Shown piece after piece: positions 59,321 to 64,000 of a DNA stretch of 64,000 nt; within the stretch, counting starts at the first letter, position 1, and every line of letters begins with the position of its first letter. The stretch comes from an uncultured Prevotellaceae bacterium (GTDB taxonomy: Bacteria; Bacteroidota; Bacteroidia; Bacteroidales; Bacteroidaceae): positions 86,589-150,588 of the forward strand of contig CACXMM010000002.1 of the NCBI GenBank assembly GCA_902768785.1, in the 5' to 3' direction. The translations under genes were made by a program, and so were the position numbers. The notes under the pieces were generated by a model that made no database searches, was not told the DNA's origin, and saw only the letters and a program-made list of their open reading frames with translations.

Positions 59321-59616
59321 TCATTAGTATCAGCTTGGCCATCCTCTTTGTCGTCCTTGCTGTCATCTTTTTGATGGGTAAGGGCGATAAACTCATTGCA
59401 GGCTACAAAACTGCCAGCGAGGAGGAAAAACAGAAAGTGAACATCCATCGTTTGCGCCTGCTCATGGCAATCTTATCTGTGATTACAGCCGTTTTCTGCG
59501 CCAGCCAGCCCTTCATTGGTAGCGAACCCAGAGACCACCTGGGCATTGGTTTCGTGTTCTTTTTAGTCACCTTGATATTCGTAATTCTCGCCAACACATG
59601 GGCAAAGAAGAAATGA
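59317..59616 (+). CDS. DUF3784 small membrane protein
   Basis: A 99-residue protein with three hydrophobic segments (ISLAILFVVLAVIFLMG, LLMAILSVITAVFCASQP, LGIGFVFFLVTLIFVILANT) and the DUF3784-type GKGDKLIAGYKTASEEEK loop. Function unknown. Its last codons overlap the mnmE start by four bases (ATGA), so the three genes phosphorylase-DUF3784-mnmE form a coupled chain. Confidence 0.85.
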   Translation: MIISISLAILFVVLAVIFLMGKGDKLIAGYKTASEEEKQKVNIHRLRLLMAILSVITAVFCASQPFIGSEPRDHLGIGFVFFLVTLIFVILANTWAKKK

Positions 59617-60971
59617 ACCACAACGATACCATCTGCGCTCTTGCAACAGCACCTGGCGGTGCCCTCGCCATCATTCGCGTTAGCGGTCTTGAAGCCTTGT
59701 CTGTTGTTGACACAATATGTCGCAGTTCCATAGCGTCTGCCCCTGCCAACACCATCCGTTATACCCACGTCACAGATGGATCTGAACTCATCGACGAGGT
59801 CGTGGTCAGCGTCTATCGTGCTCCTCATAGCTATACAGGTGAAGACTCTGCGGAGATTTCGTGTCATGGTTCCTCATACATCATTACCAAGATATTGGAG
59901 GCGCTCATTGCCAATGGTTGCCGCATGGCAAACCCTGGCGAATACACCATGCGCGCATACCTCAACGGGAAGATGGATCTCTCACAAGCGGAAGCCGTGG
60001 CCGACCTGATTGCATCAACCAACAAAGCCACACATAAAATAGCGATGAGTCAACTAAGAGGACATTTCTCTTCGGAACTATCCTCTTTGCGTGAACAATT
60101 GTTGAGACTTACCTCTTTGTTAGAACTCGAACTGGATTTCTCTGACCATGAGGACTTGGAGTTTGCCGACCGTAACGAACTATTGGAAATTGCCCAACGA
60201 ATAGAAAGTCACATCAGCCATCTTGTACAGACTTTTGAAGCAGGTCAAGCCTTGAAAAACGGTATTCCCGTTGCAATTATCGGAAAGACCAACGTTGGAA
60301 AATCCACATTACTTAATAAACTACTAAAAGACGAACGCGCCATCGTGTCTGACATTCATGGAACGACACGCGACACCATTGAAGACACCATCGGCATTCA
60401 AGGAATTACCTTCCGCTTTATCGACACCGCTGGCATCAGACAAACCGTAGATACCGTGGAGCAAATTGGCATTGAGCGCACTTATCAAGCGATGGAGAAA
60501 GCCCGCATCATCCTCTGGCTCATCGATGAGGAACCGTCAAAAGAGGAGTTACAAGTGATGCAAGAAAAGTGCGAAGGAAAGTCTTTAATCATCATTCAAA
60601 ACAAAATCGACAAGGAAGAGAAAATCCAAGCCTCTACCCTATCGTCATTAACCACTCATTTCATCACCATCTCCGCCAAATTTGGCACCAACATCGACCA
60701 ACTGGAAAAGGAGATTTACACTGTTGCCAACATACCCGAAATCAAGGAAAACGACATCATCGTAACCAACGCCCGCCACTATAACGCCCTACTTCTAGCC
60801 CAAGAGGACATTCAACGGGTAATATCGGGATTAGAACAAAACCTAAGCGGCGACCTACTAAGCGAAGACCTCCGCATGATTCTATCAACCTTGGCAGAAA
60901 TTACAGGCGGCGAAATCACCCCCGATGAAGTATTAGGAAATATCTTTAAGCATTTTTGCGTGGGTAAATAG
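59613..60971 (+). CDS. mnmE: tRNA modification GTPase MnmE
   Basis: A 452-residue GTPase which, with MnmG, adds a carboxymethylaminomethyl group to U34 of certain tRNAs. N-terminal folate-binding domain (ICALATAPGGALAIIRVSG), a helical domain, and the inserted G domain with P-loop GKTNVGKSTLLN, switch DIHGTTRDTIEDT, DTAGIR and NKID. The C-terminal catalytic motif is FCVGK. Start MNHNDTICALATAPGG was chosen because it overlaps the preceding stop as ATGA. The last third is clearly more AT-rich than genes before 59 kb. mnmG is not in the window. Confidence 0.97.
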   Translation: MNHNDTICALATAPGGALAIIRVSGLEALSVVDTICRSSIASAPANTIRYTHVTDGSELIDEVVVSVYRAPHSYTGEDSAEISCHGSSYIITKILEALIANGCRMANPGEYTMRAYLNGKMDLSQAEAVADLIASTNKATHKIAMSQLRGHFSSELSSLREQLLRLTSLLELELDFSDHEDLEFADRNELLEIAQRIESHISHLVQTFEAGQALKNGIPVAIIGKTNVGKSTLLNKLLKDERAIVSDIHGTTRDTIEDTIGIQGITFRFIDTAGIRQTVDTVEQIGIERTYQAMEKARIILWLIDEEPSKEELQVMQEKCEGKSLIIIQNKIDKEEKIQASTLSSLTTHFITISAKFGTNIDQLEKEIYTVANIPEIKENDIIVTNARHYNALLLAQEDIQRVISGLEQNLSGDLLSEDLRMILSTLAEITGGEITPDEVLGNIFKHFCVGK

Positions 60972-61059
60972 GTTGTAACACGTTGATTATTAAATAGTTA
61001 TAGTTCTTTGTTAGAGTATTTTAACAAATATGATAACTGTCTGATTATCAGCTGTTTGC

Positions 61060-61181
61060 AAAAATCTGCAAATAAAAATTATCACATTCTGCGGTAGAAA
61101 GTACGAAAAATGGGGGTAAAAATCTGCAAATATCCGATACTCATTTTGAGGGTAGTTGTCACCTGATATTTGCAGATTTTT
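61060..61181. repeat. Three perfect 15-bp sites upstream of the recombinase module
   Basis: AAAAATCTGCAAATA occurs at 61060-61074 and 61118-61132 on the plus strand and at 61167-61181 on the minus strand. The second and third form a perfect 17-bp inverted repeat with 30 bases between. They look like binding sites for a recombinase or its regulator. Confidence 0.85.
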
Positions 61182-61210
61182 GTAGATGTTTGTATTGCGC
61201 CGATTTCATT

Positions 61211-61249
61211 ATATTATCATGCCTGCACTAAAGCAGGTTTTGATAATAT
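61211..61249 (+). promoter_or_regulatory. Hairpin covering the start codon of the triple-HTH gene
   Basis: ATATTATCA-TG-CCTGC and GCAGG-TTT-TGATAATAT pair across a 6-nt loop. The right arm ends inside the ATG at 61248, so the mRNA hairpin would mask the start. Confidence 0.55.
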
Positions 61250-61853
61250 GATATACAACAACAAAAAACACTTCTACGATCCATACGATAGTTTGGACGC
61301 AGAATGGAAAGCAAGACTCTCTCATGAGATGCTTTCCGTAAGAGAAGCGGCTCGCCTTTCTGGATTCAGCCGCCAGTACATTAACAAACTCATTGCAAAC
61401 GGCATCATTGACGCTAAAAAGAACAACGATGGGAACTATGTGATTGCTTGGAAAAAGTTCGTCAGATGGTTCTCGGCTCTTCCAATTACACCAACCTCCC
61501 CTATCGGTTATGCCAGTTACTCTTTGAAAGAGCTGATGCGCTACACGGGCATGAGCAGATGCTGGTTACTTAAGTTTGCGACACGTAATTCTATTCCTTC
61601 ATACTATGTTGGTATGTATCGTCGTTTCTGCAAGTCAGCCTGTGAAGAAGCATGGAAACGTGAATCTATAGCACTGAAGCGTTGGCTTATCATTGAAGAA
61701 GCCTGCGCACTCTTCGATATTGATGAGGAAGTCATCTTTGCTCTTGCCGCCCTACATAAGATAAGAGTGAAAAGACTGAATAAAAGCCAGGTTTATAATA
61801 AGGCAGATATACTGTCCGTCGTGAAGAAAGGAGGTAAATTATGTCACGAGTGA
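61248..61853 (+). CDS. Triple helix-turn-helix (excisionase-like) protein
   Basis: A 201-residue protein built from three consecutive HTH_17/MerR-like DNA-binding units: 29-75 (LSVREAARLSGFSRQYINKL), 91-137 (YSLKELMRYTGMSRCWLLKF) and 147-192 (LIIEEACALFDIDEEVIFAL). Single units of this kind form excisionases of tyrosine recombinases. Three in a row is unusual. It overlaps the recombinase gene by 13 bases, so the two are translated together and probably act together, for example as a directionality factor or repressor. A frame from 61170 would add 26 residues but lies over the repeat sites. Confidence 0.8.
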   Translation: MIYNNKKHFYDPYDSLDAEWKARLSHEMLSVREAARLSGFSRQYINKLIANGIIDAKKNNDGNYVIAWKKFVRWFSALPITPTSPIGYASYSLKELMRYTGMSRCWLLKFATRNSIPSYYVGMYRRFCKSACEEAWKRESIALKRWLIIEEACALFDIDEEVIFALAALHKIRVKRLNKSQVYNKADILSVVKKGGKLCHE

Positions 61854-62938
61854 TTCTAAAGTACAGAAATATTTCACAGGGTAAAATGAAATCCATCTAC
61901 CTGGAGTTTAATCCTGCTATTCATGACATCAAGGGCAATAGCATAAGATACGAATGCTTGAATTTGGAAATATACACCAATCCGGAGAATAGCCATCAGT
62001 TCAAGCACAATAGATCCGTAGAGGAGATTGCAGAAACAATTAGATGTGAAAGGTATCTGCAGCTGGTTCGTCACGACTACAGTTTCTTGGCTAAGGCCAG
62101 GCTTGACGAGGACTTTTTAGAGTATTTCAGATTGAATGGTGATTGTCATGGTGCAAAATATCAAAGCAGCCGACTTCATTTTGAGAGATTTTGCAAGGGA
62201 CAATGCAAGTTTAGGGACATCAATGCCAGTCTCTGCGAGCGGTTCCGTCTTTACCTGCTTCGTGCCAGGGGGTTGCAGCACACCAAGAAAAAGCTATCCA
62301 AGAACTCTGCAAGTGCATATTTTAATGCATTCCTTAGCATTGTCCATTTTGCCTATAGGGACAATATTCTTTCTGAAGACTACACCACATGCATAGAAAA
62401 GATAAAATGGAACCATGACATTCCAAAGGAATACTTATCGAGTGCAGAAATCAAGCAGTTGGCAAGTACACCATATGATGATAATCCAGATGTGTATAGG
62501 GCTGGCATGTTTTCCATCTATACAGGATTAAGAAGGAGTGACATCCTTGCTCTCAGATGGGAGAACATACATCATGACCGTGGACGAAAAGCATATATCA
62601 GGTTCCGTATCAAAAAAACGAGAACATTGATTCAATTGCCTTTGTCTCTTCCTGCCATAAGGGTATTAGGGGATCCGAAATCTGAAGGAAAGATATTCCC
62701 CATGATAACAGAAAGCATCCTTACAATACATATCCCCAGATGGGTCAGCAAGGCTAGAATCCGCAAGCACATCACCTTCCATTGCTTCCGGCACACTTTT
62801 GCTATGCAGTTGTTAGACAAAGGGGTAGACATTTATACCATCGCTGCACTTCTCGGACACAAGCAGGTGTCAAGTACACAGAACTATGCTAAAATGTCTT
62901 CGAAGAAAATGATTGAGGCAATCGTGAAGATGGAATAA
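61841..62938 (+). CDS. Tyrosine-type site-specific recombinase
   Basis: A 365-residue integrase/invertase. An arm-like N-terminus (about 1-60), a SAM-like core-binding domain (about 80-185) and a complete catalytic domain: Arg231 (GLRRSD), Lys259, His314 and Arg317 (HCFRHT), His340 (GHK) and Tyr349 (NYAKM). It should cut and rejoin DNA at paired sites, as an integrase of a mobile element or an invertase acting elsewhere on the chromosome. The only partner is the triple-HTH gene; no transfer, replication or cargo genes follow. Base composition is more AT-rich than in the left part of the window. Confidence 0.92.
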   Translation: MSRVILKYRNISQGKMKSIYLEFNPAIHDIKGNSIRYECLNLEIYTNPENSHQFKHNRSVEEIAETIRCERYLQLVRHDYSFLAKARLDEDFLEYFRLNGDCHGAKYQSSRLHFERFCKGQCKFRDINASLCERFRLYLLRARGLQHTKKKLSKNSASAYFNAFLSIVHFAYRDNILSEDYTTCIEKIKWNHDIPKEYLSSAEIKQLASTPYDDNPDVYRAGMFSIYTGLRRSDILALRWENIHHDRGRKAYIRFRIKKTRTLIQLPLSLPAIRVLGDPKSEGKIFPMITESILTIHIPRWVSKARIRKHITFHCFRHTFAMQLLDKGVDIYTIAALLGHKQVSSTQNYAKMSSKKMIEAIVKME

Positions 62939-63838: not shown

Positions 63839-64000
63839 TTACAGACCAAATGTTATCTCTCTACGAATGTTGCTGATAGTTGTAGGTGTAACTTTTAGAT
63901 AAGAGGCTATGTCTTTTAGGTTGATACTTTGTACTATTTCAGGACAACGAAGGAGTAAACGCTTATACCGTTCTCTGGTTGTCATTCGATATGTATCAAG
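63839..64000 (-). CDS. Crp/Fnr-family regulator, C-terminal end (partial)
   Basis: The last 53 codons of a minus-strand gene that enters from beyond the window. The visible part reads TTRERYKRLLLRCPEIVQSI then NLKDIASYLKVTPTTISNIR, ending REITFGL. This is the helix-turn-helix of Crp/Fnr regulators, in which DIASYLxxTP-TxSxIRR is the recognition region. The ligand-binding domain is outside the window. It lies 104 bp upstream of the SDR gene in the same direction and could regulate it. Confidence 0.85.
   Translation of the reverse strand, partial: LDTYRMTTRERYKRLLLRCPEIVQSINLKDIASYLKVTPTTISNIRREITFGL

Follow-up and report, generated by a model that had tools for sequence, protein, structure and literature searches.

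Genomic islands of the SGI1 and MGIVchHai6 type are inserted at the 3' end of trmE (mnmE), with the last 18 bp of the gene as the target of SGI1, and the consulted sections of the reports list an integrase of their own of the Tyr type, tandem integration and phage-resistance cargo (PMC2297512, PMC7449626, PMC5704250). Stacked islands bounded by repeats of the target 3' end are also described for the Dehalococcoides ssrA-GIs, for which an integration module is reported in 16 of 31 islands and not in the other 15, with accretion suggested (PMC3146451). Cis-mobilizable elements (CIMEs) are summarized in a review excerpt as having no integrase, keeping their attachment sites and stacking with a related element (PMC5704250), and RdfS and winged-HTH factors, according to the part of the report consulted, are HTH factors that act with a tyrosine recombinase to promote excision (PMC11963761). 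The locus described here and its relatives resemble the islands in the features just named and the CIMEs in part, and the HTH protein would be a factor comparable to RdfS. It lies in a window (the whole stretch of DNA analysed, 64,000 nucleotides from an uncultured Prevotellaceae bacterium) whose contig ends exactly at position 64000. From comparison with related genomes, we consider it very likely that two overlapping genes behind mnmE encode a directionality factor and an integrase, and make up the left-hand border of a mobile genomic island, which would insert into the last codons of mnmE and restore the gene. The features of the locus are the following.

59598..60971, + strand: mnmE (tRNA modification GTPase), protein ending in FCVGK and stop; its 3' end is the insertion target
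60954..60971, + strand: left attachment core TTTTGCGTGGGTAAATAG, 18 bp, the final codons of mnmE plus stop
60972..61247, + strand: left end (LE) of the island with putative arm-type sites, up to the HTH gene
61059..61074, - strand: putative arm-type site 1, exact match to TATTTGCAGATTTTTG
61117..61132, - strand: putative arm-type site 2, 1 mismatch to TATTTGCAGATTTTTG
61167..61182, + strand: putative arm-type site 3, exact match to TATTTGCAGATTTTTG
61177..61192, + strand: putative arm-type site 4, degenerate, 3 mismatches to TATTTGCAGATTTTTG, shifted by 10 bp from site 3 and overlapping it
61248..61853, + strand: multi-HTH_17 protein, 201 aa, probable recombination directionality factor (excisionase)
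61841..62938, + strand: tyrosine recombinase, island integrase, 365 aa
63102..63734, - strand: SDR-family gene, first cargo gene, with a counterpart in the closed integrase-less unit E7 (L096, G153)
63839..64000, - strand: Crp-like regulator, cargo, truncated by the contig end; its 190-aa counterpart in L039 matches cNMP_binding

The recombinase and its multi-HTH partner

The 201-amino-acid HTH ORF and the 365-amino-acid recombinase ORF, with their 13-base overlap, were found as given in the preliminary description, which had set the start of the module at 61050; the element begins instead at 60954, with the core in the end of mnmE. The full catalytic set claimed for the recombinase was also recovered, R231, K259, H314, R317, H340 and Y349 being unchanged across 12 aligned recombinases, and the protein matches the Pfam families Phage_integrase and Phage_int_SAM_5. 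The Arm-DNA-bind_5 model gave no match with the window recombinase (P0002). Residues 4–362 of this protein align with the integrase encoded beside mnmE in S. baroniae B14, of which residues 14–75 match Arm-DNA-bind_5, and this alignment is the one element that points to a putative N-terminal arm-binding domain in the window recombinase. Integron membership was considered and rejected, the IntI-type model TIGR02249 giving 60.6 bits for a cut-off of 265.

The partner protein belongs to the Pfam family HTH_17. Among the three HTH units attributed to it, the first is clear (E 9.7e-11); units 2 and 3, searched singly, remain under the cut-off, yet their best family is HTH_17, both in the window (E 0.016 and 0.16) and in the relative L031 (E 0.0049 and 0.00017). 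Comparison of the HTH profiles gave probabilities of 86% for unit 1 against 3, 16% for 1 against 2 and 1.5% for 2 against 3, and a profile search of the HTH alignment against the PDB returned 0 matches at E 1. The protein passes the NCBIfam excisionase DNA-binding model TIGR01764 (36.7 bits for a cut-off of 28.8), which places an excisionase-family HTH domain next to int in overlapping ORFs. Partners encoded 5' of other mnmE-adjacent recombinases carry several HTH_17 stretches (three in L019, five in L016), so fused multi-HTH partners are not unique to the window pair.

On these similarities, the HTH protein is rather likely to be a directionality factor. It might instead be a mere transcriptional repressor of the recombinase operon, a role suited to the position of the 15-bp sites just 5' of the HTH gene, where a promoter is expected. 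This alternative appears doubtful to us in view of the above-cut-off match to an excisionase DNA-binding domain and of the multi-HTH partners that precede other mnmE recombinases too; furthermore, the two roles are compatible, RdfS being described in the consulted sections as binding both attP and its own promoter (PMC11963761).

Attachment cores, repeated sites and boundaries of the units

One scan of species genomes yielded 15 loci related to the HTH protein, with record titles naming Prevotella, Segatella, Prevotellaceae, Bacteroidaceae or Bacteroidales and including yak reticulum and omasum. The comparison of the mnmE 3' region called for by the preliminary description placed the pair directly behind mnmE in 12 of the 15 loci (the gene tail is cut in L027), the exceptions being B14 (L022), S. 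albensis (L029) and a deleted copy (L034). Eight loci (L021-L024, L026, L028-L030) are 85–98% identical to the window over a stretch that starts at or close to 60954 and stops where the recombinase does, and mnmE, separately aligned in four of them, shares 69–71%; the remaining seven show partial similarity or a single alignment extending through mnmE (71–95%). Within the relatives, LE is 74–97% identical across most of its length (blastn). For L028, similarity reaches 64000 (88% overall), and the 250-bp bins range from 73 to 100% behind the core versus 47 to 77% ahead of it.

Five integrase-bearing units are closed, i.e. they have a second core at the right, and measure 5.3–10.6 kb from core to core:

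L021: 5,309 bp, recombinase in two pieces
L026: 6,400 bp, left core degenerate
B14: 10,044 bp core to core
MA2016 and ne3005: 10,565 bp core to core each

The target core is a direct repeat at both ends of all five, allowing for the degenerate left core of L026. Insertion at the 3' end of trmE/mnmE is a feature that the island has in common with SGI1 and MGIVchHai6. Taken with the seven closed units devoid of integrase described below, 12 of 12 closed units are bounded by direct, not inverted, cores, and each terminates in a pair of tandem cores that lie 19 bp apart; the overlap of the first is a variant one (TGCGTCGG, TGCATCGG or TGAATCGG). The MA2016 and ne3005 units differ by 2 mismatches in 10,566 bp, one at the third base of the left core and the other 6 kb inside. 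Outside the left core, the nearest 50 bp of mnmE are 84% identical, and most 50-bp bins farther out lie at 64–88%, with a 34–54% stretch at 200–400 bp and artefactual bins at the far end of the alignment; on the right, identity drops to about 50% where the core is reached. This one species pair thus provides a case of whole-unit horizontal transfer. Since the left cores of the two differ at the third base, before TGCGTGGG, and the right cores from the twelfth base onward, after it, strand exchange would take place within TGCGTGGG.

The right end of the window's own island is unseen because the contig stops at 64000; its own genome contains no right-end match and no second exact core, and the two 1-mismatch cores on other contigs of that genome have no arm-like sites nearby. 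No common host flank was found behind the right ends of the relatives. Comparison among relatives nevertheless shows cores at both ends, sharp boundaries and recent transfer of a whole unit between two species. Matching att sites and cargo around the pair, which the preliminary description had named as the signs of an ordinary integrated element, are what the relatives display.

Several copies are altered. In L021 (6594-7653), the recombinase reads as two pieces, and this otherwise closed unit may be inactive by itself. In L034 (5743-6199), the left end and the HTH start are joined to the recombinase end and to a nucleoside-phosphorylase-like sequence, so that the locus is either an internally deleted element or an assembly chimera. 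Contig C50 of G019 (L142, 3312-3583) carries mnmE, the core and a left-end remnant followed by other genes, with no HTH or recombinase match, and two module copies of this genome lie on other short contigs (L054, L055). In Prevotella MA2016 (G217, L147), one internal TGA in mnmE was reported by the genome search.

The three perfect 15-bp sites reported 5' of the HTH gene are present at the expected place, as copies of AAAAATCTGCAAATA at 61060-61074 (+), 61118-61132 (+) and 61167-61181 (-), and putative site 4 is found at an equal position in most relatives. With up to 2 mismatches, the 14-mer AAAATCTGCAAATA occurs 3 times in the window (shuffle mean 0.72; 3 reached in 1 of 100 shuffles). Throughout the 3.41-Mb genome, the search for further 15-bp sites yielded no exact copy besides the window's 3 and 1-mismatch copies at 3 more places (1 for the reversed control). 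We also scanned left and right ends for arm-like sites with up to 4 mismatches to TATTTGCAGATTTTTG and compared the counts with shuffles. All 12 left ends, 11 of them distinct in sequence, have 4–6 hits each, some overlapping, and among 14 right ends 12 have 3–6 hits, one has a single hit and one has none, for shuffle means of 0.05–0.28 over left and right ends; these hits are not independent, since the scanned ends are related to each other. Five aligned right ends have about 240 bp in common, and the core-nearest arm-like sites have the same inward orientation at left and right ends. Inward-reading repeated sites at both ends resemble the arm-type integrase sites of lambda and CTnDOT. Because they recur at the right end, the 15-bp sites are probably arm-type sites of the integrase.

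This distribution bears on two earlier proposals. The first was that three HTH units, by reading three sites, set the direction of recombination; the site-reading part is weakened, since right ends have the sites as well, even in units that do not carry the HTH gene, and what survives is an excisionase-like protein that, we infer, sets the direction. The second was a domesticated recombinase with an HTH lock, acting elsewhere in the chromosome or inverting a segment, with which one could reconcile the orientation of the sites (two one way, one opposite) and the inverted right end found in S. albensis on the far side of a cassette. We hold this to be very improbable: a whole unit, module included, held in common by two species with 2 differing bases among 10,566 speaks against domestication, the direct cores that bound 12 units speak against inversion, and the lack of a further exact site in the window's own genome speaks against remote action. 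An invertible-promoter or phase-variation recombinase was discarded on the last two grounds.

Cargo, integrase-less units and stacking at mnmE

The preliminary description had seen no cargo gene. The SDR-family and Crp-like genes 3' of the recombinase have counterparts inside the closed unit E7 of G153, and by this comparison we interpret them as probable cargo. A family search was run on 20 selected cargo proteins against Pfam and PADLOC, and on four ne3005 proteins against Pfam alone. Matches, often to anti-virus systems, include AbiEi, AbiEii, GmrSD, PD-T4-3, a helicase and a KAP NTPase with PifA similarity, as well as TmtA (734 bits) in the G051 locus, which shares the first cargo gene of the window, and Avs4 (981 bits) in the unit of G127, where the recombinase is 47% identical. 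The ne3005 cargo includes an efflux operon (RND pump, adaptor, outer-membrane factor and acetyltransferase). Several of the searched proteins had no family, and among the 24 no transfer gene was recognised and no capsid, terminase or replication family was found.

The sizes of the units (2–11 kb) and the lack of a recognised transfer gene in the searched cargo are what one would expect of a phage satellite, or of a prophage remnant, that depends on a helper phage for packaging, and recombinase relatives (31–39% identity) occur in 10 viral-contig loci. We nonetheless regard such an origin as unlikely, as capsid, terminase and replication families are absent from the 24 proteins searched and B14 has, behind its mnmE, an element that matches an integrase, TraG and ArdC. 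The preferred reading is still that of a mobile island, which would rely on a helper, given that no transfer gene was recognised in the inspected cargo.

The right end is more widespread than the module. Among 200 genomes of the genus, 26 have the right end and 13 the HTH protein, a count that takes in weak matches (down to E 1e-5) as well as the protein of the window itself. A recombinase with at least 80% identity is found in three of the 26 (G019, G143, G185) and one with 47% in another (G127); the other 22, some of which are incomplete MAGs, have no recombinase match of at least 40% identity at E 1e-20. G117, a single contig and 99% complete, has no recombinase match at E 1e-20. Seven closed units of 2.1–10.3 kb match neither of the two module proteins in tblastn at E 0.01. 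All seven have a core at both ends (with 2 mismatches in the left core of E13), and E7, E8, E9 and E10 begin directly behind mnmE. Counted at up to 3 mismatches, left-end arm-like sites number 2 in E11 and 1 in E13 and are absent from the other five of the seven; right-end sites number 3–5 in five units and are lacking in E9 and E10. By comparison, the units thus have a right end in common, their cargo is exchangeable, and some sister units lack the integrase.

The E8 unit (G110) matches the second unit of B14 at 97% identity across its initial 1.5 kb and at 90% across a segment of 0.8 kb farther on, despite mnmE genes that are 58.6% identical. This E8-type cassette lies behind the integrase unit in B14 and, for its greater part, just before it in S. 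albensis. In the latter (L140 19774-19901, L141 1-413), the right end and the cassette start are inverted relative to the rest of the cassette, as if an inversion had broken a GIY-YIG gene. Both genomes carry a different integrase directly behind mnmE, the island unit being about 22 kb from mnmE in S. albensis and about 95 kb away in B14 (unit at 945 kb, mnmE at 848890-850248). The B14 integrase is followed further on by the TraG and ArdC matches, so that a conjugative element probably shares the mnmE target and could be a helper. The corresponding loci (L136-L139) comprise TraG, ArdC, a helicase and several very large ORFs (1,653–2,043 aa) that may represent a defence locus.

In 40 relatives, the mnmE tail was matched in 31, and 30 loci could be read behind the core. 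By eye, the left-end type of the window is present in two (the window's own and L107) and a second type in two others (L116, L125); the remaining 26 have neither in the bases shown behind the core. The second type, TTTTTTGCAAAGAAAAGCATACTAT and variants (L116 1789-2188, L125, and L147 beyond the right core), has similar arm-like sites and is perhaps the mark of another island family using the same core.

Proposed mechanism and relation to described systems

In the mechanism that we propose, the N-terminal domain of Int would bind the repeated 15-bp sites at both ends and Int would cut within the core. Alone, it would join the circle and mnmE (attP x attB), restoring the last codons of the gene, while the multi-HTH protein, as a fused excisionase binding the left end, would enable excision (attL x attR) and probably also repress its own promoter. 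Transfer of the island would depend on a helper, be it a phage or a conjugative element of the kind that follows mnmE in B14, and the same Int would move the integrase-less units.

A bolder extension, which we advance as a tentative idea, is that non-autonomous cassettes at mnmE, mostly of the defence type, form a pool that depends on a single integrase, with their traffic following a reversed logic. With a bare core on the left of a cassette and arm sites at its right end, an attR-like site would be present on its circle, so that its capture ahead of a resident integrase unit would proceed as attL x attR and require the fused multi-HTH factor, its release (attB x attP) would require Int only, and departure of the integrase unit would leave the cassette fixed behind mnmE. 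Consistent with this scheme are the S. albensis cassette placed directly before an integrase unit (its first ~200 bp rearranged) and, in G153 and G110, the units lacking an integrase that follow mnmE. Against it are the left arm-like sites of two of the seven integrase-less units, the lack of right arm-like sites in two units, one of them that of G117, and the fact that the G117 and G153 units share the cargo just behind the integrase with integrase-bearing units, for which reason simple loss of the module is possible.

In Prevotella and relatives, cargo of anti-phage and other kinds appears to stack at the mnmE end, which parallels the situation of the gammaproteobacterial trmE islands. Its short bounded units and their integrase-less relatives offer a tractable case of how defence genes spread without integration or transfer genes of their own, and a tractable question is whether HTH units fused in one chain stand in for an excisionase filament. 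In the titles and abstract openings of the open-access papers surveyed, we found no description of an mnmE island in Bacteroidota.

Precedents exist for each piece in the sections of the literature consulted, namely trmE islands, stacked islands with and without the module, CIMEs and winged-HTH factors. The excerpts on SGI1 and MGIVchHai6 describe islands that possess mobI/oriT and depend on IncC plasmids, by way of AcaCD, for their mobilisation, whereas the present units belong to Bacteroidales, have a multi-HTH partner, measure 2–11 kb, include integrase-less sister units and show no recognised mobilisation gene among the cargo searched. The Dehalococcoides ssrA-GIs differ by a serine recombinase, a tmRNA target and much reductive dehalogenase cargo (PMC3146451). 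CIMEs are described in the excerpt as keeping both attL and attR, unlike the five of seven integrase-less units without a left-end arm-like site, and RdfS is presented as oligomerising as separate subunits, whereas several HTH_17 units appear fused in one chain here. As far as our searches show, novelty lies in the host group, in a partner with several fused HTH units, in the small size and clear bounds of the units, and in cassettes without an integrase, most of them one-armed.
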